DNA of 64,000 nucleotides, from assembly GCA_025435555.1 (NCBI GenBank), contig JAIWWG010000096.1, positions 45,114-109,113 of the forward strand, given 5' to 3'. Below the pieces are notes generated by a model. It ran no database searches, was not told the origin of the DNA, and worked only from the letters and a program-made list of their open reading frames with translations. Shown piece by piece: positions 26,573 to 60,621 of the stretch. Made by a program: the position numbers and the translations under genes. Each line of letters begins with the position of its first letter. Position 1 is the stretch's first letter. This DNA is from Chytriomyces cf. hyalinus JEL632 (lineage: Eukaryota; Chytridiomycota; Chytridiomycetes; Chytridiales; Chytriomycetaceae).

Positions 26573-26628
26573 GCGCGACATTTCCCTGCAATCCAACAAC
26601 AGATCCAAAACATCCAACAACTCACAAA

Positions 26629-40512: not shown

Positions 40513-41389
40513 GTTTGCACTCTTTTTTATTTATTTTTCCCGGTCCTGCGCCGAGAGGGAATTTAAACCGCTTTTTCATTGATTGCGGCGCAACAGATTT
40601 AAATTGGAATAACTGACAAACGCAGCATTCCCTTTCTTTGCTTTTATGGAATCCAATGGAATCCGATGGAACTTGATGGAACGCAATGGAGAATCCAAGC
40701 ATACCCACCCCATGTGCATATTAATTGTTCGTGTTTTGCGTCGGTACCCATCAAAAAAACACGCGTGTCAATTTGTCACGTCGTCCCCTTTGATTGTTCA
40801 AGCCCAATTAAATGCAGACACGAACCCGCTAATAAAAAATAAATGGGAACGTTCAAATCGTGTATGCGTGTACTGTGGGTGATGAGTGTGTGTCTATCAG
40901 TATGTGGTGATGAGTATGGTGAGTTCAATAATTGGCATTGCCATTTACTGCATTCAGAGTCTTCAGAGTATACAGAGATACAGTTGAGAGAGAAGAGAAC
41001 AGAGAGAAGAGAGAAGAGAGAAGAGAGAAGAGAGAAGAGATAAATAAAATAATAAACAAAAGATAAATAAAAAGATGACAAATAAAACACGTCAGCTGGC
41101 ACATGCCGCACACACTCTTTTTTTTTCCTTTTCCACTGATTTTACGACTTTTTCATTTCTCCAAATTGGTGAGTGTATGTAACCCGCATTTTGTTTTTTT
41201 CTCTTTTTTTGATTTCTGATTGGGCACTTTCTTCTCGTCGAAATGGAAATTATAATTGCCAGACACTCAACTGATCCCCACTCAAAAAATTACACTCTCA
41301 ACACGCACAGAGGCAGGGCGCCCTTTCTCCTCTTCTCTCGGACACCCCATTCTCCCACGCACCCAACCACACCCACCCCATCATCAAAT
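40513..41389. other. Intergenic region with simple repeats
   Basis: Contains a degenerate GGAATCCGAT-type tandem repeat (about 40,648-40,697) and a GAGAA-rich microsatellite (40,985-41,041). No gene seen. The right-hand part is the promoter of the first homeobox gene. Confidence 0.5.
40985..41041 (+). repeat. AGAGAAG microsatellite
   Basis: Tandem GAGAGAA/AGAGAAG units, about seven copies, purine-only on this strand. Confidence 0.8.
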
Positions 41390-43249
41390 ATGGACCAGCT
41401 CCTCGCTGCATGCGCGACCGCCACTTCACCAGACGCAATCCCATCATCAACCATTCCCGGCCACCCCAACCTAGCCACCTGTCCCGCATCCCTCAGCCGC
41501 AGCCCCACAGACTCTGGCGTCGGCAGAAGCAAGGACCTGCTTCCGGCGCTTTCCGCGAGCCCGTCGATGCAACCAGCGGCGGTGCATGAACAAACGAAAC
41601 CCCAACAACAACAACAACAAACCCAGCAACAGCAGCAGCACGGCAGCACGAGCCCAGTGTCGTCGGTGGACCCACGCCGCCAGCGCCGGTACCGCATCCC
41701 AAAGGACGAGATGGAGGGGCTGAAGGAGTTTTTCGAACGCAACTCTCGACCCTCGTCCGAACAGATTCACACGCTCTCGGCAAAACTTGGAATGGAAGAA
41801 CGTAAAGTGCGCATATGGTGAGTTGGACTCTCCCCTGTCTGTCCGCGAAAAAAAAAGAAAGGAATTTGAGTGAAATTCGTTATCAATTTTATTTTTTTCT
41901 TATTTTTTTTTTTTTGATGGCACTTTCTCCTCTTTCCGCTCAATCAATATTTTTAAGTAAATCTCTTGGCCCTAACTCTCTTTCTCGCGTTTTCAAGGTT
42001 CCAGAACATGCGCAGTCGCAAGGGCAACAAGAGCAACTCTCCCTCAAAGCCTTCAACCTCAAATACCCAAACCCCAACTCTCCAAAGTCTCCCTGAACAA
42101 AAAACATATCCCCCTGTGCAATCCGGAAAGCCACCCACCCCCGCATATCACCCTGCTTTTCAGACAGACACGACCTTCAAACCACCAACTGAACGAATCT
42201 CTAGCAAACACATGTTACCTCCACCGCAACTGCATTCCCTTGCCCCAACGCCATCCGTTGTCGAAGCTCGCCAATTCACTCTACCCCCACTTTCTGTAAC
42301 GTCAGCCGTTATTGACGAATCTTTTCAAAAAAATCGGTTTCCATTACCCCCGGTTCCATTTTACCACCCATCCAACTCTGCGAACCATCAAAGCACTTCT
42401 GTAAATTCGAATGCTGCGTTTGATGGCCGTTACCCGCAAATGGATTCACGCGATCATCTGCCGTTTCCATCCGTTGCATACCCGCATGCCATCCCATCAT
42501 CAATATCGTCATTGTCAGGGGGGAGGCAACCACCGATCCAAGTTTCAAATCCACCATATCCCACTTTTCACACACATCCATCCCATCAACAACAGCAGCA
42601 ACTGCAGCAACAAGGTTCCGATATGCATTATATGGTGCCGCAAAATGCACCATCGCAACAACTAGGCCAGCCATACTTTCACACCCAGCAGCAGCAGCAA
42701 CAGCTTGTAGGCAACACGTACGCGTACCACCCACTACTACCGCAACAGCAACAGCAGCAGCAACTTAAACAGCTGCATTTGAACCAAATACCTGCTGGCC
42801 CAATGCACCCCGTGGATCCATATCGACCCGTCACAGGGCTCCCAATCCCAACTCCTTCAGGAACCGTGTCCCCCGTAACACCCGCAACAAACTCTCCCGC
42901 ATCCTTCACAGTATCAACGCTCGAGGCCGGAAAACACGGGTACCCACACCCGCCTTCAAAAATGGCACGACGACGCACCGATTCACACGACGATGATGAA
43001 GATGTTGAAGAAGAAGACGCTGATTCACATCGATCCTCATCCACAGCGAACCGAAAGGGGGAAAAACGGTTCATCATGTCACGAGAGCATTTGAGATGGT
43101 TGAAACAGATTTTTGAAGAGACGCCGTTTCCTTCGAGTGATCAGATGCAGTATATTGCGGATACGGTGGGGATGGATAAGCGGCAGGTGCGTGTGTGGTT
43201 TCAGAATCGGAGGGCTGTTTTGAAGAGGAAGATGCATCCTGGCCAGTGA
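41390..43249 (+). CDS. Double-homeodomain transcription factor
   Basis: Two exons (41390-41817, 41998-43249) encode 559 residues. Homeodomain 1 (about residues 96-155; RRYRIPKDEMEGLKEFFERN ... ERKVRIW|FQNMRSRKG) is split by an intron after the second base of the helix-3 Trp codon. A long Pro/Gln/His-rich linker follows, with an acidic DDDEDVEEED patch. Homeodomain 2 (about 496-555; KRFIMSREHLRWLKQIFEET ... KRQVRVWFQNRRAVLKRK) ends 4 residues before the C-terminus. Both keep WFQN with the DNA-contacting Asn51 and are of the 60-residue non-TALE type. Poly-Gln tracts suggest activation or assembly domains. It is the first of six consecutive homeobox genes on this strand. Two homeodomains in one fungal protein is unusual. 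Confidence 0.9.
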
Positions 43250-44264
43250 TTTGTTTTTTGGTTGAGTGTGTGTCTGTCAGTGTCTGTGTTTTTTTTTTTT
43301 TGCTATGTTCTTTAATTTTCTATTTTTTTTTCTTTTTTTTTTTACTATATTCAGTTCCTTTTTAGTTCATCTTCTGGTATTTTCGTTTCCGCATGTTTGC
43401 GACAGACTTGTCAGATTATAAACAAACAAAAAAAAAAACTTCAAAGGCGCAATGAAGCTTGGCTGTGGGAATTAAGGTAAATGATGGAATGCAATTTTCA
43501 AAGCAGTTTGTGCTTGTCTGTCACACTAGTTCAGTTTATTACTTGACTGGGGGCTTGACATGAAATTATTATATGCGTTTCGTGTCTCTTTGTTCTTTTT
43601 TGAAGTCGTTGTCATTTGGGATGGATGGATGCCCAGTCGTCTGTGCCAAGGATTCTCTGCAGCAAGATAACGCATACAACACACGAGAATAGAAGAGCAT
43701 AGAACGTGATGGAATAAACATAAAATATACAGTATAGAATCAGAGTTAGTTCATGTTAAGACTGATGAAAAAAAAAAGTTTGGCACTCTTAATCCTCCCC
43801 CCAACAAAAAAGAAAGGCAAACCATAAACGGCCGCTTGCAATGCGGCATTACAAATGTAAAACTGATAAAAAAAAAACCAAGACTTTTTCAAATTAAAAA
43901 CAAAAAAAAAAATTGTCAAAAATTTCGTCAAAAACGGGATTGTTTTTGTTCAGCAGAAGAGACTCGAGATATTGTCCATCAGACTCACCACGCTTTGCTC
44001 TATCGAATCCGCCCCTCACCAACGTCGGTTACCGCAGAAACAGCCGCGATCGCGGCAATTCACTGTTACACAAGCTGTAAATCAATCACGTGAATTGCAA
44101 AAATTGTCTATAACAAAAAATTCTGACAATCTCCACCCCGACTCACCACCACCGCCCCCTAAAAAGAGGGAAACTGCTCGCCAACAACCCTTGTTCAAGA
44201 TATTTTGACCAACAAAAAACCAAAAATTAACCCAACCTCCAGCAAGCCAACTGTTAAAAAGGAA
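43250..44264. other. Spacer between homeobox genes 1 and 2
   Basis: T-rich 3' region of gene 1 and AT-rich upstream region of gene 2. No gene recognised. Confidence 0.5.
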
Positions 44265-45035
44265 ATGACCGCTCCTCTGACACCAGTCCACAGCGAGCCC
44301 TCATGGCAGGATCACCAGGACCCATCAGCAACAGCAGCAACATGCTCCTCCTCCTCCTCCTCCTCCGACACATTCATCAACTTTTTTCAGCTCGGTGTCT
44401 CGCCTTTTGCATATGGCGCTGACGTGGGATCATTGGATCTTCATCAACTCCTCGACTCTTCTTATTGTCTTCCGCTTCTTCAACTGCACCACCACCACCA
44501 CCACCAGCAACAACAACAACAACAACAACAGTCGTCACATTTTGCTCTGCCGCCACTATCTTCCATTGACACTGTTACACCTTACTTTGGCACCACCGAC
44601 TTGTTCTCGGTCCCACCTTCAGCATCAGCATCTCCCATGCCACCATACCCACCATACCCACGGCTAATTGAAAGCAAAGTTGTATCTCTTCAAACAAAGT
44701 CCCAGTCCCCCGAAGTGACGTATTTCCCCATCCCACCAACGAGTCCTAATCAACAACAACAGCAACAAAAGCAGCAACAACAACAGCAGATTCACAGCAT
44801 CACCTCCCCCATGGACACTTTTTTAACGAAACCTTTAAAACCGGCACGAGCACACATGGAAGCTGGTGGGAAACGGTTTCGACCCACAAAAGCACAAGTG
44901 GACTGGCTGAAGCGCAAGTTTGAAGAGACTCCGAACCCGAAATCGGACGAAATGCGCCGGCTGTCGGATGAGTCTGGGATTGAGATTTTGAAACTGCGCG
45001 TGTGGTTTCAGAACAAGCGCACGAGGAGTAAATAA
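44265..45035 (+). CDS. Homeodomain protein 2 of the cluster
   Basis: An intronless 256-residue protein starting at ATG 44265 (MTAPLTPVHSEPSWQDH). The N-terminus has Ser, His and two poly-Gln runs. The homeodomain is at the extreme C-terminus (about residues 200-256; KRFRPTKAQVDWLKRKFEET ... ILKLRVWFQNKRTRSK), so the stop falls within the last turns of helix 3. Helix 1 resembles homeodomain 2 of the previous gene (WLK..FEET.P.PSSD-like spacing), which suggests tandem descent. It is expected to act in the nucleus as a sequence-specific DNA-binding protein; targets unknown. Confidence 0.9.
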   Translation: MTAPLTPVHSEPSWQDHQDPSATAATCSSSSSSSDTFINFFQLGVSPFAYGADVGSLDLHQLLDSSYCLPLLQLHHHHHHQQQQQQQQQSSHFALPPLSSIDTVTPYFGTTDLFSVPPSASASPMPPYPPYPRLIESKVVSLQTKSQSPEVTYFPIPPTSPNQQQQQQKQQQQQQIHSITSPMDTFLTKPLKPARAHMEAGGKRFRPTKAQVDWLKRKFEETPNPKSDEMRRLSDESGIEILKLRVWFQNKRTRSK

Positions 45036-45079
45036 AAAAAAAGAACGATAGACTCTGCTGCTTCCGTATTTAAAAAAAG

Positions 45080-45150
45080 AGAGAATAAAAAAGAGAATAA
45101 AAAAGAGAATAAAAAAGAGAATAAAAAAAGAGAATAAAAAAGAGAATAAA
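45080..45150 (+). repeat. GAGAATAAAAAA tandem array
   Basis: About six tandem 12-bp units, each containing AATAAA, starting 45 bp after the stop of homeobox gene 2. It may serve as a stacked polyadenylation signal. Confidence 0.8.
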
Positions 45151-45587
45151 TGAATGAGTGTGTAGAGAATATAATGCGCCACAAGCGGGATCGATCCAAT
45201 GTGTGTGTGTGAATGTCCCAAGTGCAAAAAGAGATAATGAAATCTTTTAATCTTTTAATCTAGGGTTTGTGTTGGGGTTCTTGTGTCAGGGTTCTATTAG
45301 GGTTTGTTTGTGGTCGGAGAGCAATCTCCATCTCCAGCATCTGCATCTCTGTTTTCTGTTGACTGTATCTGACTGTATGGAGACATGCGTGTTTGTGTAC
45401 AGTGACGGAGAGAGTCTCGATCGATATTCCCAATCCACCCACCACATACAGCATACAGCAATCCTTGTTAATGCATAGCGTGGCGCTGGCCCCCCTTCCC
45501 AATGAAAGGTGTCACACAACTTCAATCAAAATCCCTGATGTGTTTTTTGCAAGGAAACAATTCCGCACTTTTTTTTTATTTTAATAA
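45151..45587. other. Spacer between homeobox genes 2 and 3
   Basis: Contains a short ATCTTTTA duplication near 45,241-45,260 and GGGTTTGTGT/GGGTTCTTGTG-like words. No gene seen. Upstream of gene 3 there is a T-rich tract immediately before the ATG. Confidence 0.45.
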
Positions 45588-46816
45588 ATGCTGAATCGCG
45601 AGCATTGCCGCACAACTTCCTCCGCCGCACCACCCCAACCGATGCAAGAGGCTCATCGGCCCACTGCCATCATCCATCAAACAACCACCCATTCCGATCC
45701 TAGCCCCAACGAACAACAAGCACCCTATTCGGCGCACTTTCCGTCCATGCAAAGTCCGATTCACACAGGCCACCACCACCCTTACATGTCCCATCGGCAC
45801 AACAGCGCTATGAACAACAGCAGCAACACCTCAAACATGCAAACCTCGAATATATTATTGACAGACTTTGAACCCGCCAACGCATCTCCGTTGTTGGGTT
45901 CAGCCATACGCCACAACAACAGCCAAGCCTATCGCTATATGCATTCAGTAGTACATCCGCAACCGATGCAATCGTATGATCCAACGATATCCATGGGCAG
46001 AGTCGGCGCCCCCGCCGCCGCCGGCACCGCATATTACGCTGTGAACGGGGAACCTTTGGATCCACTGTTGATTCACCCGTCCATGTCGATTATACCCATG
46101 ATGCAAATGCCATCATCATCGTCGTCGTTGTCGTCGCGTAGTGGTAGACAAGTTCCTCAAAAGTCGTTTTCAGCGCATCAATTTGAGCAATTCTTGGCAC
46201 AGCCGCCACCAGTGTCATCGGCGCCTTCTCCACCGACATCTTCCTCTGCAACAACATACTCTATCCCCATTGCTCCGTTAAAGTCGTTGGATTTCGCAGA
46301 TGTGTTGCGAGAATCGCCAAACCCTCCCACACCGACAAATTTGAACGAAAAGAGTCTTGGCGCGGCTGCTGGTATTGGAACAGTGGAATCAGCTGCATTT
46401 GTTCCTACATCCTTCACCGAAAACAACAATGCCAATGCTTCAACAACAACATTGTTGATTCAGCCACACATTTTGTCAAATTCTTTATTGGAAATACCTC
46501 CCATCATCGAATGCTTGCCAAAGAAATGTTCAGCGAAACGGAGTCGAATCACGCAGGCTGCGCTGTTGTATCTGATTGACCGCTTCAATGAAAACAGTTC
46601 ACCTTCAACGACGCAGTTGCAAATGTATGCGCACCATTTGAATATGGATGTGCCGAAACTGCGAATCTGGTGCGTTTGCCGCTTTGTTTGCCGTTTTTTA
46701 TGTGTGTCTTTGGATGTTCAGCCGCAAAAAATTAAAAAAAGAGGTTCAAAAAAAAAAACAGGTTTCAGAATCGAAGAGCCCGACAAAAATTGGAAAGTCG
46801 CCGGGACTCTGTATGA
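45588..46816 (+). CDS. Homeodomain protein 3 of the cluster
   Basis: Two exons (45588-46669, 46762-46816) encode 378 residues. The N-terminal three quarters is Ser/Thr/Pro/Asn-rich. The homeodomain lies at about residues 314-373 (KRSRITQAALLYLIDRFNEN ... VPKLRIW|FQNRRARQK). The intron interrupts the helix-3 Trp codon after its second base, the same site and phase as in homeodomain 1 of the first cluster gene. Without splicing the frame runs on through non-homeodomain sequence, so the intron is well supported. The short second exon ends with TGA at 46814-46816. Confidence 0.9.
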
Positions 46817-47776
46817 CAAGCGATTTGATGTGAGCGTTTTGTGTTTGTGGTAGGGAAGGATGGCAGTAGTGTGGATGAGGGGAGTGTGGTCGGTCTGCCT
46901 GCTTCTGTGTGTTTTTTTTTTTAGTCTTGATTTCTTTCCTCTGTTCCTTGGGACGGGCGGGGGCACCAAAGGTTTTGTGCAGTAGTTTGTCTTATTTTTT
47001 ATTATTCTGTCTCTGCATCTGCACCTTTGACCATTAGAGTGTATATTCAGTGCGCGCTGGTTCGCACCTTGTTAAATTAAACAAAAAAATTAGAATAGAC
47101 AGCCAGCCAGCCTTTCCCCCCTTTCGCCACTGAGTGATTTGGCATTTTTTTTGTGAGTATTGGCAATGGATACCACTCATGACATGAAGGATACCCTCCT
47201 TGACTCATGCGTTGGATGTTGGGTGGTGAAGATGGGGAGGAGCGGACCATTTCCGACGGAGTAAAAAAAAAAAAAAGAGGGCGTTCAACAGTCGGTACGG
47301 TACAACACAAGGGTGCAAAACCTTTGACTCAAAAATGTTTTTGCTTTGAAAACACTCACAGAGCGGTTCAATATTGTTTCGGTCCGCACTTTTTAAATTG
47401 AATGAGATATGGATGCCCTCACACAAGACAAGACAGCGTAGATACGAAGCGGGCGAAGCGAGAGTCCAAGCGGGCAGACGGACTCCAACCAAACAAACAG
47501 CGTTCGTTCGTTCGTTCGTTCGTTTGCCGTTGCAAAAGAAACCAACGAATCAAATCGCAGCAAATTGGAATCAACCAATCAAATTGTTCCATCCATCCAA
47601 TAAAGTGCTCGGTTGCACCAAAAAAACACCAAAAGCAAGCGGCCAACCCCAGCGTCAATTTCTTTGGAAGGGTGCAACTTTTTTATAAATTTTTTACAAT
47701 ATTCAATACATTTTGATTGCGAGGGTTCTCAGCCAATTTCTCAGTATCTGCAAAAAACAACCAACAAAATACTTTT
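46817..47776. other. Spacer between homeobox genes 3 and 4
   Basis: No supported gene. Contains a CGTT microsatellite at about 47,502-47,527 and polypurine/polypyrimidine runs. Confidence 0.5.
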
Positions 47777-47783
47777 TATAAAA
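47777..47783 (+). promoter_or_regulatory. TATA box of homeobox gene 4
   Basis: TATAAAA, 33 bp before the chosen ATG at 47810, implying a very short 5' leader or a start site further upstream. Confidence 0.5.
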
Positions 47784-47809
47784 CCCACGAATTCCATCCA
47801 TCCCTTGTC

Positions 47810-48928
47810 ATGCCGTCAAAGTCTCTTCCCACTCCAATCATCATCCATCCCATGTCCATCCCAGTCTCCTTGGACCACATCGATGGCCACGAGAAGCGGA
47901 CCTTTAGTCTTCCAAATCCATCCCAGCAACAGCCCCACAACAGCCACTACCAACCACAGCATCATCAAGACCCATTTGCATTCGCTGTCCTGTCTCAGCC
48001 AGCCATGTCCAACTTGTATCATCCCACACAGCAACAGCCTGTCGATGTCTCCTTCCCGCTTCACATTCACCAAGACTTGTTTACTTCCGAAATATTCCCG
48101 AACCTTGGAATGAGCTTCAATGCTTCGTTTCCGTCGTCGTCGGACCCATTCTCGCACTTTCTTCATTCCAGCAGCATCCAGCAACAGCAACAACAGCAGC
48201 AACAACAATATGCATTCGACTCACCCTCCACCACGCATGAGTCACAATTCTTGGACGTGAGCGATCTTCTCGCATTCCAAAACAGTAACAACACAATCAC
48301 CCCAACTGCTCCAGAACTGTTTGACTTGCAAAATGACTTGGCACTGTTTTCAACTTCGCCTGACCTTGGATTGACGTTGCATCAACATCATTTTCAACAG
48401 CAACAATTGATGTCTTCTCCCAGCCAAACACCAAGTCATCGACTCCTTAGCACGAGTCTCATCAATCTTGCCCATTCCACTTCACCAACGGATCTATGTC
48501 CAGAACCGTCCATGTCACAGCAGCAGCAACAGCAAACAAGTGGTACAATAACAGAGTTCGAATCGTCATTTGATCTCCTTGCAGGTCCTTCCACAGACAC
48601 AACACCCAAGCAACAACCACCACTTGCATCAAATCGCCGCCCATTCACATTCCCAAAATGCCCGCCATCTTCTTCTCAACCCGGGTCCCGTCCAGGATCC
48701 CGCGCAGGTTCCCGCGCATCATCGCCAACCTCAACAAAAGAGTACAAGCGCGTGCGTGTGCCGCGAGACCAGATGGAATGGTTGAAGCAGATTTACGATG
48801 TGAATCCATACCCGTCGCAAGAAGAGCTCGAGACGATTTCGCAAGATATTGGGATTGGCGTGCGTAAAGTGCGTGTTTGGTTTCAAAACAGAAGAACGCG
48901 GCAAAAGGCGCTCATGGATAGGAAATGA
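47810..48928 (+). CDS. Homeodomain protein 4 of the cluster
   Basis: An intronless 372-residue protein. Gln/His/Ser-rich N-terminus with poly-Gln runs and a GSRPGSRAGSRAS repeat shortly before the homeodomain (about residues 310-369; YKRVRVPRDQMEWLKQIYDV ... VRKVRVWFQNRRTRQK). The segment PRDQM.WL is shared with the damaged fifth gene downstream, and WLKQI is shared with homeodomain 2 of the first gene. These similarities support duplication in place. The helix-3 Trp codon is not interrupted here. It is predicted to be a nuclear DNA-binding protein. Confidence 0.9.
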   Translation: MPSKSLPTPIIIHPMSIPVSLDHIDGHEKRTFSLPNPSQQQPHNSHYQPQHHQDPFAFAVLSQPAMSNLYHPTQQQPVDVSFPLHIHQDLFTSEIFPNLGMSFNASFPSSSDPFSHFLHSSSIQQQQQQQQQQYAFDSPSTTHESQFLDVSDLLAFQNSNNTITPTAPELFDLQNDLALFSTSPDLGLTLHQHHFQQQQLMSSPSQTPSHRLLSTSLINLAHSTSPTDLCPEPSMSQQQQQQTSGTITEFESSFDLLAGPSTDTTPKQQPPLASNRRPFTFPKCPPSSSQPGSRPGSRAGSRASSPTSTKEYKRVRVPRDQMEWLKQIYDVNPYPSQEELETISQDIGIGVRKVRVWFQNRRTRQKALMDRK

Positions 48929-49074
48929 AGAGGTTGTGAGAGCGCTTCAAGCTTGGGATTTTACGGTAAATTAAATGTAAATAAGTTGTCCAATCAAAAT
49001 ATACTCATGGGGGAGTTAAAAAAAAGGGATAAAAATAAAAAACGCAAATATATGATGATGAGTATTCGAAAGCA

Positions 49075-50100
49075 ATGATGATACCAAGCACTTGTCGGAC
49101 ACAGTCGCAGCCGCAGACTTCGTACACGGATGTAAACAGCCATCCTCTGCTGGCTCATCCGCCGCACAGCAACAGCCTCCCAACAGTGTTCCTGGACGAT
49201 GACCTGCATGACCCCAATTTGCATGCACTGGATGTGTGGCTCAACCGACTGGGCTTGACAATTGGCTTGGCATGCGCTGCGACGCATTTCACTTTCTTGT
49301 TCCTCCTCTCCAGCAGCGCATGAACTCGAGCCATGCACCGCATGCGGCTCCTCTGTTGGCCAATCAGATTCAAGCACAGAGGAGGCGTCCATCGTTTGAT
49401 CCTATCGCTGGTCTTCAATTGGACCCAGTCATCCCAGCAATTTCACAGCAGCAACCTGTTCATTCAACCCCTGTTCATCCTTTGCTGCTGGAATCCAGTC
49501 TCAGAGCATTGTCAAATTCATCTTCTTCTGCTTCCATGGACGAATTCTCATTCTCAAGGAATCGTCCGCACTACCACCGACCGGCGGCACCTTGCAACAC
49601 GGCTCCTCAAAGTCGCCGTACAAGCATTACATTGCACTTTAACGCTCCAGCAACAGCTCCTGCCAGCAGACTTTGCAGTCCCATTTTATGGAGCGTCCCC
49701 GGCAGTCGAGCTACATCCCCGGAACCTGCCATCAAGTTTCCATTAACCAACCGCCGCACCTCAGAAACTGCAAAACGCAACCAAACCAGCACCAGGATCA
49801 ATCCCAACAACAACACCAGCAGCAACACACAACAATTCTCTCCTACACACTGAATCATACAATCCAAACGGAAGACGACGACTACGAATTTGACAAGGAA
49901 AAGGGAAAACGGCATCGCATCCCGCGTGACCAAATGTCATGGCTGCGGGAGCGGTATGCGGGAACCCCCCACCCGACTCCCGCGCAGATGCATGGCATGG
50001 CATGGCACGACAGCTTGGAATGGACAGGAGGAAGTTGCGCGTTTGGTTTCAAAATCGACGCGCAGTGGCCAAAAAGAAGGTGTTGGAGGGACCGATTTAA
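49075..50100 (+). pseudogene. Homeobox gene 5 of the cluster, frame-broken
   Basis: A homeodomain is readable but not in one frame. The first part (KRHRIPRDQMSWLRERYAGT ... PTPAQM) is in one frame, and the last part (GMDRRKLRVWFQNRRAVAK) is two bases out of phase. At the switch CATGG is repeated three times (49991-50005); one extra 5-bp unit accounts for the shift. Upstream, the Gln/Pro/Ser-rich N-terminal region also changes frame, near 49,250 and near 49,670-49,800, so either introns or further lesions are present. ATG at 49075 is a plausible start and TAA at 50098-50100 the stop of the homeodomain frame. Either a recent pseudogene or an assembly error at a short tandem repeat. Confidence 0.65.
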
Positions 50101-50971
50101 ACATTATTTTTCTTGGGATGTGTGTTTAGATGGGGAGTTTTTATTTAGATGGTATGTGTATGTGGTGTGTTTAGATGAGGAGGAGGATGGATGGGATGCG
50201 CTTATGATATGTGTGTGAAAGCAAAAACGTACGATGGCTTCCGTGTTATGTTTTGATTGGGGAAATTTAGGGAAACGCTTTCACATGCGATGGGTGGGAA
50301 ATCGCTCACGACCAGCCTCAAAAGTGAGGGTGACTGGACCGGTTGCATGGCATCATGACGAAGAGAAGGTCAATTGCAGCAGATGGGGTGGGCCGCAGAA
50401 AGTCCGCTCATAGCGAGACAGGCTGGGGCGTGCCCGTGAGTTGGATGATGGCATGGCCCCGCCTTCTGCGAGAGATGAGCAGTAAAAAAATGCAATGGAA
50501 ACTAGGCATGCGTGAAACACACAAAAAATGAAATAAAATTTTAGAGAAGTGAGGCTGGCCTTTTGAAGGGGGAGGTTGATACCTGCACAGACAGATGGAG
50601 ACTATACAGACAGACAGACAGACTGACTGACTGACTGACTGACAAACTCAGACATAAACTGACAAACCCAGACAGATCAAAACAAACAAACAAACAAAAC
50701 AATTGTTACTTAAACGGGTGGCGTCCCCTTAAACGGAATTGCGATCATGCAAATTTTTTTTTTTTACTTTTTTGGGTTCTTGTTTTCTTTTAATCACTCT
50801 TCAAGACAAAAAATTGTAAAAAATCGGTCTCAACGACAATTTTTGTTTCTGTCCCAGTGGCCCCCCTCAAAAAGGACTAATCAACAAACCCTGGACATCT
50901 TGCGCGTTTGATTTGCACCCATCCATTCTACCCTGTCCACCTACACCCACCTACACACCCACACCCACCAT
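50101..50971. other. Spacer between homeobox genes 5 and 6
   Basis: Contains GACA/GACT tetranucleotide repeats (about 50,600-50,645) and an AAAC-rich stretch (about 50,683-50,702). No gene seen. Confidence 0.5.
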
Positions 50972-52132
50972 ATGGACACCTTCAACGACTACCTCGCCAA
51001 CGAAGGCTTCATGAACCTCCAGCACTCAGTAGACCTCGAGGCTTCCCTCCTAGAATCCTTTGCGGAAGAAGTCCTGGACCTCACCCACGACACCAACGCA
51101 TTGCAGGACAACACCATCATGTGTTTCCCGCCATTCAACTCCAGCTTATCTCTGCCCAAATTCGACGACTCGCATTCCGCCTTCTTTGTGGAACCTTTCC
51201 AGCCCGTCGTTGTCGGAATCCCAAACGATTTTCAGATGCCATCTTCATTTCCCTTCTCACATCAACCGTTTCAGCCATTATACCACCACCAGCAGACGCA
51301 TCACATTCACCATCAGCAATATCAGGAGCAAGGATTCAATTCCGTTTCTCCGTCGCCATCGCTGGAATCCCCTTATTCGTTGTTGCACGGATACTCGTCA
51401 TCAACACCCCCGCACACACCTACATGTCTCCCACTCTCGATCGTGGCTCCTTCGTCAACACCCATGTTCTACCTGGACACGCACTGCGTGCGATCAAGTC
51501 CCGCTCCGCTCGAATCAACAACAACTGCAACAACGGCGGTGCAGCCTGTTAAAATCACCATCCCCAGCACAAGAAGCATGCACTTTTCACCGCTGCCAAC
51601 CCCTGTACAAAGGTCACCCCTGTCTGGCTTTATTTCAACCACCCATCTCTTGGCAACGGAGAAGCGGGATGCTTCGCCGTTTGTAGAGTCGCCACGCTGC
51701 GAGTCTGTTGAACCAGCCTCACCATCTGCATCGCTTCCTGAAATTACTCTCCCATCAACAACAACTGCAACAACGTCAACACGGAAACCCAAGCCGTCCA
51801 AGTCTGCGTCCACACATTCAGACTCGGTGTACTCTCCTCGCAAGTCGTCAACCACTTCCAAACGGTCATTGACGCAACAAAGCAGCAACGCCGCCGCCGC
51901 CGCCACTAGCAGCAGCACAATGGGTGTCAAAAAGCGTCACATTCTCAAGGAAAGAGAAACAAAATTGCTCAATGTAGTGTTCGAAAGCACTCGCTTCTTG
52001 CAAGCATCGCAGGCTGCAGAGCTTGCTGCCAAGATGGGCATGACGGTGACGCAGATTCGCATCTGGTTCCAAAACAAGCGGGCGTTTGTCAAGAGACAGT
52101 CATCGGCGTTGTCTTTGCAGAGTGATGATTAG
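50972..52132 (+). CDS. Homeodomain protein 6 of the cluster
   Basis: An intronless 386-residue protein (MDTFNDYLANEGFMNLQHSV) with a fairly acidic, non-repetitive first 60 residues, then His/Gln- and Ser/Thr-rich stretches. The C-terminal homeodomain is at about residues 318-377 (KKRHILKERETKLLNVVFES ... VTQIRIWFQNKRAFVKRQ). Its helices 1-2 are the most divergent of the set, but WFQNKR is intact. The last 10 residues form a Ser-rich acidic tail. Last homeobox gene of the run; the next genes downstream are on the minus strand and unrelated. Confidence 0.9.
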   Translation: MDTFNDYLANEGFMNLQHSVDLEASLLESFAEEVLDLTHDTNALQDNTIMCFPPFNSSLSLPKFDDSHSAFFVEPFQPVVVGIPNDFQMPSSFPFSHQPFQPLYHHQQTHHIHHQQYQEQGFNSVSPSPSLESPYSLLHGYSSSTPPHTPTCLPLSIVAPSSTPMFYLDTHCVRSSPAPLESTTTATTAVQPVKITIPSTRSMHFSPLPTPVQRSPLSGFISTTHLLATEKRDASPFVESPRCESVEPASPSASLPEITLPSTTTATTSTRKPKPSKSASTHSDSVYSPRKSSTTSKRSLTQQSSNAAAAATSSSTMGVKKRHILKERETKLLNVVFESTRFLQASQAAELAAKMGMTVTQIRIWFQNKRAFVKRQSSALSLQSDD

Positions 52133-52150
52133 GAGTGTTTGTTCTTGTAT

Positions 52151-52151
<1 letters not shown>

Positions 52152-52182
<31 letters not shown>
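52152..52182 (+). repeat. T31 homopolymer
   Basis: Thirty-one consecutive T directly after homeobox gene 6, between it and a convergent minus-strand gene. Confidence 0.85.
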
Positions 52183-52183
<1 letters not shown>

Positions 52184-52289
52184 GAGAAGTGTGAATTGGA
52201 GCTTTTTGTATGGGCTTGTTGAGAGGCGATTCCAACACGTGATCAAGAAAGATCGGAGAATAAAAAAAACTTTTTCATCTCGGAACCAT

Positions 52290-52724
52290 TCATTGCGCAC
52301 TTCGCTGTTCCGAGCTCGAGCTTTCCTCCCGATACCGAAAACCATGCCCGAAGTCTCCTTCCAACAGATGAAGATTCTGAATGCACTCCAGCTGAGCTAA
52401 CCGTGCGGGGAGCGTATCGGAGAAGGCATCTTGGCTACAGCTCCAATCTAGGAACGAGTCCGCCACGCATTTGCAGTAGTACTGCTTGCCTACAAAGCAC
52501 TGCGTGCGTTCGTTGCATTGGAGGCCTACGGGGAGAATTGCTTGCGCGGTGGGTGCGTATGGGGGCAGGAAGAGGCTGTTTGGTGCGGACGGGTTGCGGC
52601 AGAAGGAGAAGCCGCTGTTGTACGTGCCCGGATAGGTGGAATTAAGGCAGTCGGTGTCCATGATGATCAGACAGGTCGCGCTGGAAGCTGACTCCGCCGT
52701 GATAGCGGTGCCTGTGATGGACAT
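52290..52724 (-). CDS. Cys-rich ectodomain-only paralogue
   Basis: A 144-residue frame from ATG 52724. It contains a Cys-rich segment (FSFCRNPSAPNS ... ILPVGLQCNERTQCFVGKQY, then YCKCVADSF) that matches the spacing of the next gene's extracellular domain (VGLVCDTQPKCIQGIQYTCAC). It lacks the transmembrane helix and cytoplasmic coiled coil of that neighbour, ending in a hydrophilic tail. It may be a truncated duplicate or a secreted form; an unseen upstream exon could supply a signal peptide, since none is evident at this start. Confidence 0.55.
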   Translation of the reverse strand: MSITGTAITAESASSATCLIIMDTDCLNSTYPGTYNSGFSFCRNPSAPNSLFLPPYAPTAQAILPVGLQCNERTQCFVGKQYYCKCVADSFLDWSCSQDAFSDTLPARLAQLECIQNLHLLEGDFGHGFRYREESSSSEQRSAQ

Positions 52725-52938
52725 TGGGTGTTTTATTGGTTGTGATCTGCTGTTTGATTGCGAGTGATTTTATTGACTCGGTTGGGCTTGGAGTTTTAGG
52801 TGTGTAACACCATCTCCATTGATTGCCATTATTCTTTGGCATTCTTTGGCGTTCGCATCGCAGTCATTTTATTCAATTCAGTCTATCGCTTTATTCTCTC
52901 ATTCGTGTCATATTTCATAGGTGCACTGTAAACAAACG

Positions 52939-54033
52939 CTATATCATGTTACCACCAAGGCCTTTTCTTCCTTCATTTCCTCCAAACGCGGCAGCCGGTT
53001 GAGCTATGTGGGGAACCTCCTTTTCAATGACTCCCATCATGGCACCCGCCTCAGCATCCGTGCGCGCATACCGCTCCCTCTGAATCTCCTGTCTCTTACC
53101 AACAACCTTACCATTTTCAATAATATCATGCTCAATCACCTTAATTTTGTTCCCACTCGCCTTCAACTCCTCCTCACGCTTCGCAGCTCTCAGTGCCAGT
53201 GCCGTTTTAAACCTCAGCGCAAGCCTCTGATTCTGTGTATCATTGGAGCTCTCCATAATCTCCGTCAACACTTTCTGCCGCTTCATCTCTTTCACCGTCA
53301 ACTCATGTCTCTTGCGCACAATCTCGTCACGCGCCTTCTCCAGCGTCAACTTGATCTTGTCTTCGCGAAGCGCGCGGTTCGCTACGCCTTGGTGAAACGC
53401 CTGTGCGAGCTCCTGCTCGCGGCGGACACGGTTCGCTTCAATGCGCACGGCCTCGTCGCGCCGCGCCTCACGTTCGAGGTCTTGTTTGCTGTGGAGCATC
53501 TTGTCTTGGTCACGGCGCTCGGCATAGTAAGCTTTGATATTGCTTGGGCTGCAGCCTCTGCCGCCGAAGCAGGCAGCTGAGAGATAGGCTGTGAGGCAGC
53601 CAAGGGCAATGATGGAGACGATTGCGATCGGGATGATGGTTCCAATGGAGCTAATCAGGCTGGAAGACGAATTTGAGGTCGAATAAGATGAGGAAGGGTT
53701 GTAGTTGCATCTGTCTGAGCGAGAATAGTCTTTGTAGCAGGCACAAGTGTATTGAATGCCTTGGATGCACTTGGGTTGCGTGTCGCACACGAGTCCGACG
53801 GGGATCTTTGTTTGGCTTACGTAGGCGTCTTCTGGATACTTGAATTCATTCTTGAGGCCTGTACAGTACCGGTACACTCGTGTGGTTGTATTATCGGAGA
53901 TGCTGGGCTGGCAGGAACTGACTTTCGTGAGTGCGCAAGTAATGGAGGCGTAGAGGTTTTCATCAAGCTTTCCGGAAACGGTGCCGTTGGTGGCAATAGG
54001 CTTTTGCAGATTAAGGTCGAAGGCAGAGGACAT
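52939..54033 (-). CDS. Single-pass membrane protein: Cys-rich ectodomain, TM helix, coiled-coil tail
   Basis: A 364-residue protein from ATG 54033. The N-terminal domain has about nine Cys (ASITCALTKVSSCQPSISDN ... IPVGLVCDTQPKC ... YTCACYKDY) and a Ser/Tyr-rich stem. A transmembrane helix follows (IIPIAIVSIIALGCLTAYLS), then a long charged Arg/Glu/Lys-rich coiled coil (about residues 185-330) and a Gly-rich end. Topology is inferred as Cys-rich part outside and coiled coil inside. No clear signal peptide precedes the first Cys at this start; a short hydrophobic stretch just upstream in frame (INIFVFSIETLI) suggests a missed upstream exon. Family unknown to me; the neighbouring 144-residue frame is related. 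Confidence 0.7.
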   Translation of the reverse strand: MSSAFDLNLQKPIATNGTVSGKLDENLYASITCALTKVSSCQPSISDNTTTRVYRYCTGLKNEFKYPEDAYVSQTKIPVGLVCDTQPKCIQGIQYTCACYKDYSRSDRCNYNPSSSYSTSNSSSSLISSIGTIIPIAIVSIIALGCLTAYLSAACFGGRGCSPSNIKAYYAERRDQDKMLHSKQDLEREARRDEAVRIEANRVRREQELAQAFHQGVANRALREDKIKLTLEKARDEIVRKRHELTVKEMKRQKVLTEIMESSNDTQNQRLALRFKTALALRAAKREEELKASGNKIKVIEHDIIENGKVVGKRQEIQRERYARTDAEAGAMMGVIEKEVPHIAQPAAAFGGNEGRKGLGGNMI

Positions 54034-54519
54034 GATCAGAGTCTCAATGGAAAAAACGAAGATGTTGATGCGACACAGCTGACTTGGCAAAATTCTTCTG
54101 ATTTTAGCGGGTTGCACAAAACAACCGCATCAGGAAGCTTGTTGCTAAAAGGGCGCTGGGGCGGTTGGTGCTGGCGAGGTAAGAGACAGTTGTGTCCATG
54201 TCTCGCACGGGCGCAGTTGTTGCTGTCCTGGGTTCGAGTTGTCAAAGAAGACGATACGAAATATGTTTGATTGCGCCCAGGCAGGCAGGCAGGCAGTGCT
54301 GTGCTGAGTCGAGTCTGATGCGAGCGTGCCAGACACGGACGCCGACACCCGACGCAGCCGACAACGTGCACTGAATACATACCGAATAATGGAGCCAAAT
54401 AAACAAAAGAGGAAGTTGTTTGAGATGGAGAAGTGGAATCGCATTTGATTAAAGCGTTTCACTCACAGTGGTGCACTACTTAAATACAGCAATTCAAAGC
54501 AGCAGAGATTCAACAAAGA
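54034..54519. promoter_or_regulatory. Divergent intergenic region
   Basis: Lies between the minus-strand membrane protein and plus-strand mucin-like gene 2. A TTAAATA element is at about 54,479, some 40 bp before the ATG at 54520. A GGCAGGCA microsatellite is near 54,281. Confidence 0.4.
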
Positions 54520-55948
54520 ATGAAGACTGCGCTGTTGTTTGCTGTCGCTGTCCAGACGTGGGTCGCTGTGACCGCTGTTATTCCCGTCTGGACCTACCAT
54601 CAGGACGACAAATGTCAGACTGCTGTCGTTCGAGCAACGTCAACACCCGATCAAGCAGACTGCCAGCCTATTGACTGCAGGAAACTCATTAACCTCGACA
54701 ACGTATTCACGGGTAAATACGTCTCACAGATCTGCAGTAATGACCCCATCGGCACCGCCAGGGCCTCCTTCTCACCCTACGCAGAGGTCATTGAAGAGCT
54801 CCAACACAATGACGGAAACTGTGCTGACCAAATCCAAGGTTTTACTCTGACCCTGCCCAATGTGTGTTTTGCACCAGAGGGTAGAGCTGGAAACTACTTC
54901 CGCCTCACCACAAACTCTGCTGCGGTCGTCTTGGACCAGTACTCGGATGACAACTGCCAAGTAAACTTGAATCTGCCCATTGCGCAGCAGTTTGATGTCT
55001 GTTATGACCGTACCACCAGTCCGGTGGGTGGATTTGGGTTCCGCTTCGTCAGCCGATTTGTTGCGGCGCCGCCAACCACGACCACGTCCACGACCACCAC
55101 GACTTCCACCACTACTTCGACTACAAGCAGTGAGTCCAATTTTATTATACTTGACCATTTTGTCATCTTTGAGTTTGTTGATCTGTTTCAACACAGCCTC
55201 CACCACTTCATCCACGACCACATCGTCCACAACCACTTCCTCCACCACAACTTCCTCCTCCACCACCACCACCACCACTTCCACCACAACCACCCCAACT
55301 ACCACCACCTCAAGCAGCACCACCACCACCACCACTACCACTACCTCTGCTGCGGCCGCATATACTCTGGCTGCCATTTTCCCCGGTGTGGCACCACCAA
55401 AAGACGCGTACGCTCCCCGTCTCGCCGGCGGATGCATCAGCAAATTCCAACTCAACAACCAAACGGGTCTCCCCCAATTCATCAACAACGCAACCCTCTG
55501 CGGCAACCAAGGCGACATGATTTCCCAATTCACGGCCCTGTTCGCCGTTGGATCCGGTATTGCCAAGCTCAACAACGGGTTCTTGGAAAACGGAACCTAC
55601 GTGATTCAAATTCAAGCGTTGAACTCAACCAAACGCAGAGATACCTTGGATTCTGGAAGAGGAAACTGGAATTGGTTGTATAACGGGATTAACCCGCTTC
55701 CACCCACGCAAGTTATTCCACCTCCCACCGAAGAGCCACCAAGAACCGAGGAACCACCAAGAACTGAGGAGCCACCAATCACTGAAGAGCCGCCAAGAAC
55801 TGAGGAGCCACCCGGACCCGAACCCTCTCAAGCCCCACCAGCGCCCATCAGTGTCATCAGACCTACTAACGTGTACAAGGCGGGTGCTGTGAAAGTTACT
55901 GGCGCTACTGTTGCTGGGCTTTTGGCTGTTGTTGCTCTTGTTTTCTAA
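54520..55948 (+). CDS. GPI-anchored mucin-like surface protein, copy 2
   Basis: Two exons (54520-55129, 55197-55948) with a 67-bp intron in the Thr-rich stalk, the same place and length as in the inverted paralogue at 31,711-33,217. Signal peptide MKTALLFAVAVQTWVAVTA. The N-terminal Cys-rich domain contains IPVWTYHQDDKCQTAVVRAT and VVLDQYSDDNCQVNLNLPIA. A Thr/Ser stalk follows, then a second domain (AYTLAAIFPGVAPPKDAYAP ... RDTLDSGRGNWNWLYNGINP), a TEEPPRTEEPP repeat, and a hydrophobic C-terminal GPI-type signal ending VALVF. Probably a surface or cell-wall protein; no named family recognised. Confidence 0.85.
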
Positions 55949-57924
55949 AACTGGGGGATGTATGTGTGTGTCTTGTGCGTCTATTTGCGCGAGCTCTTAT
56001 TATTCTTCTTCCATCTCGTTTTCTTCTTCCCCTCCCTCCCCTTTCTGATAAACTCCTCCCCTTTCTGATAAACTATACACTACGGGCAATAAATATTCTT
56101 GTGGATGAATTTCGAGGATTCTTGCACAAGAGCGCTCAAAAAGCCTCTTGCCCAAGAATGCAGATAATTCTTGTGGAAGAATACCGGTATTCATCCACAA
56201 GAATCCGGATTTCATGCTTGTGCAAGAATACAGTTGCCGATGCTTGCGCAAGAATGCTCAAACAGAAATTGATCCACAAGAATGCTGCCAGAATTGATCC
56301 ACAAGAGCGCCACGAAATTGATCCACAAGACTTCACGCGTATTCTTGCCAATTGATGCAGAATTTAATAATTATTGAATAAAATCCTTTTTTTATTGATG
56401 ATAAAATAACGGAGGAACAGAAAGGAAGGAAGGAATGGCGAATTAAGGAATCATTGAAGAATTTAAGGCGATCGTCGTTCGCAGAGAGGAGCCTATCAAG
56501 CCTGCACAGCACGGCAGCGGCAGCGCACATTGAATCCGTGCAGAGAAGAAATACTCGCATGGAGTTTTTGGCGTGATAGCTGTTGGATGCAGAGAATCAT
56601 TAGATAATCGGCTCGAACGCAATAAAATAAATTGGCGACTTCTCACTTGTTTTTCCAGCGCAGAGAATCCCTGAGCACGTGTTGTTCAATCAATTTTATT
56701 GGCGGTTGCCTGCGACAGTCAGAGGGTCGGATGTTACATCAGTTTGCCGATGATGTTAATAAAACAGAGACGCCTTACATTGCAACATTATACGCGGAGA
56801 ATCCATACTCATCAGAGGAACTGCGCGGCTGGACTTGACTGTCAGGTTGCGACAAGGCTGAATGAAGGAAGGGAAAGTTGATTGGGCTGTTCAGCATTTG
56901 CAGAGTGATGATCAGGTTGTCGATGCAAACCTGCATGCTGATGGATTGCTGCGAGTAGGCTTGCCTCACGTGTTTGAAGGCGTGTTGGGAGGGGACTGAT
57001 CGGCTCGAGTGGTCATGCTGGCTGAAAAAGGGAGACTTATCTTGATTTGATGTGTGTCATACACAACTGATAAATAAATATCCCACAAAAATCCCCAGAT
57101 GAACAACATTGATGAACACTCCTTCAAGAATTTGAAGCGTCTTTATTCACTCGTATACCGTTCAATATTTCGTGCAAGTTCTTTGATGTGTGTATGCGTC
57201 AAATTGCTTGTTGCTGCCAATCATTGTTTATAAAAAAAAATGCAAGATTCACTGGACGAGAAGCCATTGCTTGAATCCATCCATTCACCTCCTTCTGTCT
57301 ATCTGTCCGTCCGAAGATGCCTGTCAAACCTCTCCAATGCACCTGGAGACGTTTGAGTGGCCGTCTTTGACAGCATCTCTCTCCAATCTCTGCCATATCG
57401 CATCTGTGCTTGCTATCATCACATCTTCGGTCCAGTCCACGCCGAAGCGGCGCGCTTGCTTATTAGGGGTACCTGGCCTTGCAGGGCAGCAGCAGCGAAC
57501 CGGGAGTAATCTGTCGAAGCCCCTTCCCTCGTCTTGCGGAGCCACCAATCTTTCCGAACACACGCTGGAGCCATGGGATATGAAGTCATTGTTTGGCAAT
57601 CTCACGCCGCTGGAATTGCCGGTATCAATCCATCTTTATTGCTCAATCCTTTCTTGGCGAAATTGTGTCGAAGTGAGTTCTTTCACCCACATCTCACACG
57701 GAACCTTCTTGTGTGGAATCCTCATCTCTTTTGTTCTCATATTCTTAATTCTCATCTATTTTATTCAGCTATTCTCATATTTTTTCTATTTTCACCTCAA
57801 CGCCATGCCAACTCTGTTAAAATAAACACATCGCATCTTGCTGTTCCATTTCAATTCCATTGCAGGGCCTTAATTGTTCATTGACAGTCTTCTTGTTGCT
57901 CCGTTTCCCAGTGTTTTCGTTCAT
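55949..57924. other. Gene-poor stretch with short repeats
   Basis: No gene I can support over about 2 kb. Contains the ATTGATCCACAAGA repeat field described separately; the rest has only short frames without family features. This marks the transition from genes to the right-hand transposon block. Confidence 0.5.
56096..56340. repeat. CCACAAGA / TCTTGTGG repeat field
   Basis: ATTGATCCACAAGA occurs at 56268-56281, 56293-56306 and 56317-56330 (spacing 25 and 24 bp). Upstream there are both orientations of shorter words (TTCTTGTGGA, ATCCACAAGAAT, TTCTTGCACAAGA), so the field can pair with itself extensively. Confidence 0.75.
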
Positions 57925-57953
57925 GTTGCGGATCCTGGTCAAGGTGGACCAGT
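57925..57953 (+). repeat. 29-bp repeat, copy 2 (copy 1 at 9126-9154)
   Basis: Identical over 29 bases to the reverse complement of 9126-9154. One frame reads MLRILVKVDQFILDQ before a stop. It may be a fragment of the same Harbinger-like transposase family, next to the Copia remnant. Confidence 0.8.
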
Positions 57954-58307
57954 TTATACTTGATCAGAGCAAGAATAGTTGTAGTCATGTAGTGGAATAA
58001 GCTATCGTCATCTACAAGTCTGCACCCTTTATAGAACACAAGGATTCTTGTATTCATTCCTTGTTATAGTATCAACTAGACATTTACCCTACTCAATGTC
58101 ATAATTCATGCCCATTTGTATTGAGGTTGGTGGAATGGTGAGGTGTAGGACTCTTCTTTATCTGCAGTGGAGAATAAGAGATGAATCAGGGAGAATTAAC
58201 CTTTATTGAAGTAAACAGTGCTCCATCACTTGAGACTGATATTCAACACCTCCCCACAATCCAAACATAGGACTGTAGAGAAGTTCAGGTTTAACATAAC
58301 ATGTGTC

Positions 58308-58326
58308 TGTGTGTGTGTGTGTGTGT
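58308..58326 (+). repeat. TG microsatellite
   Basis: About nine to ten tandem TG units downstream of the Copia reverse-transcribing region. Confidence 0.8.
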
Positions 58327-58425
58327 TGGATTGATGTAAGAAGGTTCAAGTGCATGTCTTGGTATGAAGCCTTCAATGATGAAGGATATCTATTTCCAAT
58401 TTTGTTATTTGTGTTACCCTCATGG

Positions 58426-60621
58426 TTAGCTCACAGGCTGTGCTTCACTCAGAGAGTAACACTCTGCTTCAGTTGAGGACAGTGCTACCACAGGTTGTTT
58501 CTTACAGTACCAAGTTACCGCTGCTCCCGCCATCAGGAAAACATGGCCAGATCTGGATTTTCTACCAGCTTCGATACAGCTTGGCAGCTTTGGCTTTGGT
58601 GTCAACCCCAAATCCAAAACAATAGCCCAAAGCATTTCTGACAGTGAGAGTCAGATAGCAGCTGCTCCCCCCAAGGGACTTGTTGTTGTGTGAGAAAACC
58701 ATCAGGTCTGCAGTCACCACTTTGAGCAGTTTGTCAGGCTGGTAACATGCACCCAGAGATCGTGGGTGCAGAAGCCGGTACATCTTGGCCAGGACACAAG
58801 CTTCACAGTTGCATGCAGTTTCTGTATCATTTGTGTCCCATAGCATGAGATCCAGACCGTCTGCAGCTGCAAGCCGAAATGTCCGTTCAAGAGCTTTGTC
58901 CCCAATATGGGTGCGATTGTGCCATACCAGGTTCCTTGTCTTCCAAGATGGAGCAGCTGCTAGAACAGGTCAAGGGGAGTACTTAAATGTGATGGGAAGC
59001 AATCCTCCCTTTTTGAAGCCTTTTGCAAACACTTCTCATGGCCCATTTGCAGGGAACTATCCAATGCTTGCACTCATGTCTGAGTGATCAAACAAGACAC
59101 TGTAGTTGTTCTTGGTAAGGACGTCGTTGACACTTAGCAGATTATGGGTGGCATGTGGCGTATGTTCTATGGGAGGAGTAGTGTATACAACTGCTGAGGT
59201 GCCTGATATAGAGCCCTCATGGCCACTCCCGACAATCCTGCCCCCATCTATCCCACTCCATGTTGTTGGAATGCACAGTGTTTGTGCAAAAGCTGGATGA
59301 TTTCCAAGTGAACCTGATGCTGCCGAATCCAGATTTAGCATGATTGAGTCCTCCCGTGAAATGGACAGAGCATAGGCGTCACTGTGGTTTATTGGGAGAA
59401 ATATGAAACCCAAAGCTTGGATTGCCACTCCTTGCTTGGGCTGGTTGCCACGATGTTCTGACTTGAGCATAACCACTGGGACATTTTCTCCTGAAGCCCG
59501 TGGAAACGCCAGATTCTTGCACCCAATGGCTTTTGCTGCTGCTTCTGCACTTTGAAAAGTCATCCTGATGGCTTCCCATCAGATCTGGTACCGATAGATA
59601 TGCGCGTGGTTGGTCCAAAGTTTTCCATTGCCACTTTGAGAGTATCCTCTGAGATGTTCCACAGCAGCTGGCAAACAAACACTTCATTTTTATCCCTTTC
59701 TCCCCAGCTTGCTGGTGTCCAAGTCCCTCCGGTAGAATTTCTTGACCTGTTCCCAAATTTCAAGGAAGCATGCTCCACCTGAAGTGCCGCTCCTGATTCC
59801 AGAGAGTCTGTCTCCCCACGCTGCACTTGAACCTGACGAAGTTCCGCCACCTCAATTTGCAAGAAAGCCTTCATGGCAGTCACAGTCTTGCAGGGATTTG
59901 GTGTGCCATTGTCCTTGAGATTGTGGAGAAACTTGTCTTTGTATATTTTGAAATCTTCCTCTTTGAGTCCGAAATGCAGACGATTCCCCCACTCAAGATG
60001 TTGGGCCTCATGGCCAACTGCATCAGGGAAACCACAATGAGAAAGATGAATGATCAGATCATCGGCTTGCACAATATATTCCAGTGGTGTCTCATGTGGC
60101 AACTGTGTTATTTTGATGAGCTTCTTGCGGAGCACGTCAGTCATGAGCTGCTTGTTGTGATTGATTTCCTTCATCAAAACATCCCAGCGCTCTTTCACGG
60201 TTGATGGATTTGTCGGGTCCTCCATAATAAACTTGGCCAAATTGTCGTCGAGATGTTGGCAAACCAATTTTGTGATGGTCTGCTTGAATGAATCTCCAGC
60301 CTTGAGCCTGCATCATGAAGTCACTGTTGTCCTCTGCTTTGGCCTCACGAGCAGGGACATACTACAAGCCCAATGCCGAATGTGGCAACTGCTCTGCTTG
60401 GGCAACATCGGCTGGCTGTGCGGGATAGTCGTCTTGAAGTGGAGCCATCATGTCAATGAATGAAATCCGTAATGTCCAGTGGATCCCCGTGTCTGTATTC
60501 TTTTGGAAACTTGACGACCGAGTTGAGTTCAAGAAAGAGTTCTGTGGCCCATTTTGGAAAGGCCTCAATGCCATCTTTGTGGGTAAGAAGGTTGATCTTG
60601 TTGACCAACTTGGGTGCCATG
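58426..60621 (-). mobile_element. Ty1/Copia LTR retrotransposon, internally deleted
   Basis: Minus-strand polyprotein blocks in Copia order. Gag starts at ATG 60621 (MAPKLVNKINLLTHKDG) and continues in a UBN2-like segment (60267-59800; ERWDVLMKEINHNKQLMTDV, LPHETPLEYI). The aspartic protease follows (59563-59057; LNLDSAASGSLG and HNLLSVNDVLTKN), then the GAG-pre-integrase and integrase zinc region (58930-58570; WHNRTHIGDKALER, CNCEACVLAKMYR). The RNase H end comes last (58620-58426; LSSTEAECYSLSEA). Reverse transcriptase and most of the integrase core are absent between about 58,570 and 58,620, and frames differ, so this is a dead deleted copy. LTRs were not identified, although related 40-50 bp segments occur at 60,687-60,745 and 60,801-60,850. 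Confidence 0.8.

Follow-up and report, generated by a model that had tools for sequence, protein, structure and literature searches.

The DNA analysed here is a stretch of 64,000 nucleotides (the window) from Chytriomyces cf. hyalinus JEL632, located on contig JAIWWG010000096.1, which we call C239, in an assembly of 37.8 Mb and 242 contigs. Between positions 41,390 and 52,132 it holds six successive genes on the plus strand that together carry seven homeodomains (HDs, A1-A7); boundaries, strand and an open reading frame (ORF) scan all agree with the initial annotation on this point. We read these genes as a tandem array of homeobox transcription factors, the regulated targets of which are inferred. 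The organism would be a flagellated fungus that has several arrays of this kind, and we would assign the reading a probability of roughly three in four. Two extra members of the array and a genome-wide expansion of the family lie outside the window and constitute a stronger result than the array itself.

The homeobox array in the window

The array begins with an in-frame ATG at 41,390 (an alternative in-frame ATG lies upstream at 41,243) and ends with the stop codon of the sixth gene at 52,132. Its genes are separated by gaps of ~0.1-1.0 kb, and the ORF scan found no further ORF of >=280 amino acids (aa) between them, a length at which small genes in the gaps are not excluded. The features are given below in window coordinates, together with the stretch shared with C236, another contig in this assembly. 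Allele comparisons are expressed as dN/dS, the ratio of nonsynonymous to synonymous divergence.

41390..43249, + strand: gene 1 (A1 and A2), predicted two-HD protein of 559 aa; open spliced frame, with the same predicted splice on C236
Gene 1 elements, + strand: intron 41818-41997; HD1 41675-41817 and 41998-42034; HD2 43055-43234
44265..45035, + strand: gene 2 (A3); PF00046 E 7.8e-12; C236 allele, dN/dS 0.167
45588..46816, + strand: gene 3 (A4); HD4 46527-46669 and 46762-46798, with predicted intron 46670-46761
47810..48928, + strand: gene 4 (A5); HD5 48737-48916; PF00046 E 1.9e-15; HD identical to that of the C236 allele
49048..50100, + strand: gene 5 (A6), broken allele; HD6 remnants at ~49898-50082, located by tblastn with the intact C236 protein
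50972..52132, + strand: gene 6 (A7); HD7 51923-52102; PF00046 E 5e-12; tree clade 95/82, starred
40656..52213, no strand assigned: stretch shared by C239 and C236, 82-84% identity over two long alignments

A canonical 60-residue HD had been claimed for every gene, which does not hold for all of them; A6 is broken in the window, and HD3 (A3), which begins at 44862, is cut at HD residue 57 by a stop codon. In a PF00046 scan of the cluster ORFs, four of five reached 45-57 bits, above the cut-off of 22.9, and A4 scored 19.9 bits because an intron splits its HD. Indeed, HD1 and HD4 are each interrupted by a predicted intron within the WFQN codons. The helix-3 residues W48, F49, N51 and R53 are present in A1-A8, and A9, one of the two extra members, has K51. 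The HD is C-terminal in A2, A3, A4, A5 and A7, preceded by a long region enriched in Q, S, P and T.

That seven HDs belong to six genes, as annotated, turns on gene 1, which is predicted to be a single gene with two HDs. HD1 splices in frame into a stop-free second exon whose ORF ends with HD2, placing the two HDs ~340 residues apart. The intron falls in codon 48 of A1, and its acceptor is AAG on C239 and CAG on C236. Between alleles, successive quarters of the second exon give dN/dS values of 0.20, 0.26, 0.29 and 0.30. HD2 as a separate gene was considered and is unlikely: constraint on the codons that separate HD1 from HD2 sets in within the first hundred (dN/dS 0.20) and continues from there, and the window's first in-frame Met after HD1 is not conserved in C236.

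Contig C236 carries A1-A7 over 11.5 kb in the order and on the strand seen in the window, followed by A8 and A9, which occur on contig C7 as well. The full cluster A therefore comprises nine HDs in eight genes, and the annotated cluster of six genes describes its extent in the window only. The concern that the array might be absent from other assemblies is answered in part, in that the array recurs on C236 within this assembly.

Homeobox genes across the assembly

A profile search of the contigs returned 99 PF00046 matches, which resolve with none left over into 60 distinct non-TALE HD loci (92 matches with alleles) and seven of TALE type. The 60 HDs amount to ~58 genes, because A1/A2 and two HDs on contig C134 each share an ORF. 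PF05920 added one TALE match, on C35, and by eye the TALE genes number four to five. Allele pairing was checked by gene order in clusters A (C239/C236), B (C231/C174), C (C232/C230) and E (C182/C231) and relies on similarity elsewhere; 29 pairs called as alleles have 85-100% HD identity. Five clusters of at least three HDs hold over half of the set:

Cluster A, C236/C239, one strand: 9 HDs
Cluster B, C231:36002-65959 and C174:279473-296677, one strand: 16 HDs over ~30 kb, the largest array (15 directly on C231, the sixteenth via its C174 allele)
Cluster C, C232/C230: 5 and 4 HDs
Cluster D, C165: 4 HDs within 13 kb, one on the opposite strand
Cluster E, C182/C231: 3 HDs
Pairs F, G, H and J: two HDs each

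Outside these groups, a single ORF at C134:355879-356250 holds two HDs only ~12 residues apart, a DUX-like layout, and two inverted TALE homeobox copies with identical scores lie 11 kb apart at C90:110861 (+) and C90:121592 (-).

The density that the initial annotation found remarkable is not expected by chance. When the 99 matches were placed randomly on one 37.8 Mb line, runs never exceeded three in 2000 trials, as against observed runs of 14 on C231, 9 on C236 and 9 on C174. Under the same treatment, 79 Zn_clus matches gave a longest run of 4; tandem duplication therefore occurs elsewhere in the genome but is stronger for homeobox genes. The same matches bear on the nature of the organism, since the Zn_clus genes point to a fungus and a radial-spoke protein match points to flagellation. 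This fits the earlier designation as a probable chytrid, short of proof.

Heterozygous damage or loss affects some alleles within the arrays. The intact A6 protein of C236 has 353 residues and aligns by tblastn to the window in frames 1, 3, 2 and 1, revealing three frame changes, one of them within the HD. On C174, B10 no longer reads in frame; on C231, part of the B07 HD is gone; and C3 has no match in the examined C230 stretch. Taken with flanks that do not match between haplotypes, the broken alleles and the difference in copy number suggest ongoing birth and death. Conversely, dN/dS between alleles is below 1 in all 18 computed pairs, from 0.03 (B15) to 0.53 (A9), and the copies have therefore been kept as proteins. 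These observations bear on the view that tandem duplication is simply a general habit of this genome, the array having no special meaning and many of its copies being transient. The short Zn_clus runs, the broken and missing homeobox alleles and some fairly high dN/dS values (0.445 for A1, besides that of A9) are all in keeping with such a habit; homeobox runs of 14 and 9 against a Zn_clus maximum of 4, and dN/dS below 1 in every computed pair, render it unlikely as a full account.

The flanks themselves require comment, as contig alignment found no C239-C236 similarity beyond window positions 40,656 and 52,213. The left flank of C236 matches C186 (91% in one alignment, 90% up to C236:30,561 in another), a contig without any homeobox match in the genome PF00046 list, and the right flank matches C7. 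Similarity breaks at window 40656 and 52213, C236:30561-30644 and 42166-42773, C186:196654 and C7:2473, and the haplotype flanks at the array edges sit on different contigs. Either the haplotypes are structurally different at these edges or contigs have been mis-joined, and for C236 the mismatch could come from a mis-join, from rearrangement or from insertion of a large segment. A heterozygous reciprocal translocation is not supported: the contig starts of C160 and C7 were compared and share no similarity. Separately, window 52,404-59,258 is 100% identical over 6.85 kb to C160:1522-8374, part of a contig of 10,008 bases, and this stands out against the rest of the assembly, which looks diploid and diverged; it is either an assembly duplicate or a recent loss of heterozygosity. 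Some regions of the assembly may also be collapsed, because the radial-spoke gene is found in only one genomic place.

Could uncollapsed or mis-joined haplotypes then have inflated the homeobox count, or created the array outright? The many allele pairs, the disagreeing contig flanks and the identity between C239 and the 10 kb contig C160 would suit an artefact of this kind. However, the figure of 60 is the count after alleles were merged, A1-A9 share at most 50% HD identity with one another, and all nine lie on the single contig C236, with seven on C239 too, making an artefact extremely improbable.

Descent and putative function of the cluster

Relationships were examined in an HD tree of 63 rows and 60 columns. 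One clade unites the B-type HDs with the G, H, C1_275 and C43 genes (support 98/95); the HDs of cluster D also form a clade (99/94), as do, weakly, those of cluster C (67/0). The nearest paralogue by identity is a cluster-mate in 29 of 58 rows, where shuffling gave a mean of 5.8 and none of 5000 shuffles reached as high. For cluster A the figure is seven of nine, namely A1-A6 and A8 (shuffle mean 1.26, 1/5000 as high), and for rows of E, G and H it is zero of seven and for J zero of two. Approximately unbiased (AU) clade tests, run on 58 of the 63 rows with a quick tree, did not reject A1-A6 plus A8 as one clade (p 0.633), nor that clade with A9 added (p 0.529) or with A7 added (p 0.086). A single origin of all nine cluster A HDs was rejected, narrowly (p 0.040). 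The initial annotation had proposed a series of local duplications and strong subsequent divergence, and for A1-A6 and A8 this proposal is supported; we consider that local duplication accounts for most of cluster A, these seven perhaps forming one clade. A7 departs from it, grouping in a separate clade with C165_170, C35_386 and cluster D (95/82, starred) and being 53% identical to both C165_170 and C35_386. The outcome that the initial annotation named as refuting a common origin, HDs falling in separate clades, thus holds for A7 and may hold for A9, which is unplaced.

Intron positions offer a longer perspective. A predicted intron after homeobox base 143 (codon 48, phase 2) occurs in 14 of the 60 HDs, drawn from clusters A, B, C, E and J (A1, A4, A8, A9, B01, B02, B09, B16, C3, C4, E1, E2, J1 and J2), and the A4 allele at C236:36505 has its intron at a position identical to that of the window copy. 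Other predicted positions exist, e.g., after base 150 in B05, B10, F2 and C188_407. The common position supports an older common stock from which the intron would later have been lost in many copies.

Several points nevertheless weigh against the overall reading. Half of the inner branches of the tree (30/60) are open with the bootstrap not settled, as sixty columns resolve few deep forks. A7, and possibly A9, did not originate by duplication within cluster A, and A9 is without N51. The HD count depends on pairing by similarity and is soft by a few either way: H2 and C1_275 share 85% HD identity, as do the lowest allele pairs, yet they are counted as two loci, and C177_194 is a doubtful homeodomain with a splice score of -5.7.

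In known homeodomains, residue 47 touches bases. It is I or V in A1-A8 and cluster D, F or L in 15/16 B-type HDs and N in 5/5 of cluster C, a pattern that predicts targets differing more between clusters than within one. In the divergent HD of A9 (C236:45941, C7:5507), K51 stands where N is usual, and normal DNA binding may have been lost. After the HD, 11/22 listed B-, G- and H-type proteins have, by eye, a C-terminal motif like PLS....FFYV, perhaps a partner contact. As we would reconstruct the system, local duplication produced most of cluster A, while A7 at least belongs to another homeobox lineage, within a family at ~5x the usual fungal size that is turning over by birth and death. Its proteins would bind TAAT-like sites via helix-3 residues I or V47, Q50 and N51, their long Q/S/P/T-rich N-terminal parts would serve for activation or as co-factor regions, and divergence among the copies would lie mainly in the time and place of expression across the zoospore, thallus and sporangium cycle.

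Linked homeobox genes in a fungus invite comparison with an HD mating-type locus, in which HD1/HD2-like compatibility genes are kept polymorphic as in basidiomycetes. The genes here are indeed clustered, the haplotypes differ structurally at the array edges, and microsporidian HD clusters were, according to PMC2866331, once proposed as candidate mating loci. Yet contigs outside the arrays hold all of the eight best PF05920 (TALE) matches (E up to 2.6e-8), and weaker matches within the arrays are typical HDs. A2 and A5 score 24.8 and 29.1 bits with PF05920 (cut-off 24) but 54.5 and 56.8 bits with PF00046; TALE homeodomains have three additional residues separating helix 1 from helix 2, whereas those of cluster A align without gaps over 60 residues. 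The PF05920 search found no TALE partner in the arrays, although an intron-split TALE gene could escape it. Moreover, clusters A, B and C have their genes arranged head to tail and not divergently, HD alleles are 96.5-100% identical in the seven of nine cluster A pairs compared and thus not idiomorphic, and synonymous divergence between alleles (dS) in cluster A (0.16-0.27) is similar to that in B and C (0.10-0.34). We regard a mating-type role as very improbable.

A further possibility is an independently evolved, co-regulated cluster comparable to Hox or mouse Rhox, in which gene order would set timed or spatial expression in thallus development. In its favor, cluster A lies on a single strand throughout, its order is maintained between two diverged haplotypes, and the order of cluster B is likewise the same in C231 and C174, as far as C174 extends. 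Conserved allelic order is, however, expected from recent common ancestry alone, and the unmatched flanks and lost alleles suggest that the array as a whole is weakly constrained; such co-regulation is improbable. Equally improbable is its bolder extension, an independent system of animal size with ~60 genes, several head-to-tail clusters and cluster-specific recognition residues, in which position would time development.

Elsewhere in the window, the minus strand at 18364-20643 encodes a histidine-specific methyltransferase domain and, after it, an FGE-sulfatase domain, the layout of ergothioneine synthase Egt1. On the plus strand, the ORF at 26419-28488 contains 6.8 copies of a 126-base (42-residue) tandem repeat at 26921-27784 and matches no Pfam family above cut-off. 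A Pfam scan of 30001-33000 in one arbitrary frame was without match.

Comparison with known homeobox systems

A small homeobox set is what fungi usually exemplify, and ~60 genes in this genome would break that rule. Two reviews (PMC4901127, PMC11508405) put the usual fungal complement at less than a dozen genes, in agreement with the initial annotation's remark that such genes are usually few in fungi, and eight homeobox genes are named in Aspergillus flavus. The domain family is the same, and the difference lies in number, ~60 HDs here against usually fewer than a dozen, and in clustering. PMC10406608 lists homeobox among the most dynamic early-fungal families and among the losses at the base of Dikarya; a larger number in early-diverging fungi is therefore not unexpected. 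Among the listed matches in the openly licensed PMC literature, no paper on a chytrid homeobox array or expansion was found.

Parallels exist for the arrays themselves. PMC2866331 describes three homeodomain clusters with six genes in Encephalitozoon cuniculi, which resemble the present case as neighboring homeobox genes in a fungal relative; here, nine and sixteen HDs occur per cluster. Basidiomycete HD mating-type loci also contain linked fungal homeobox genes, and the present arrays differ from them in that no TALE/HD1 partner was found, transcription is non-divergent and the HD alleles are near-identical. The double homeobox proteins of DUX4 type are a further point of reference: DUX4 is the best PDB sequence match (E 1.1e-20) of B14, the sole B-type HD queried, and gene 1 (HDs ~340 residues apart) and the C134 gene likewise carry two HDs. 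The similarity is that of a generic HD, the A2 query had an engrailed construct as its best match, and orthology is not claimed.

Another comparison is with animals, where, according to PMC4901127, the Hox, NK and mouse Rhox (33 genes) clusters grew by tandem duplication. The present array differs in being fungal, and again no orthology is claimed. The expansion would offer a second kingdom in which to study the birth of homeobox clusters, with gain, loss and breakage of copies visible between two haplotypes in arrays that reach 16 HDs, in an organism whose short life cycle permits stage-wise expression tests. The likeness to the animal clusters lies in many homeobox genes in a row, a shared DNA-binding superfamily and local duplication, here in the form of same-strand paralogues.

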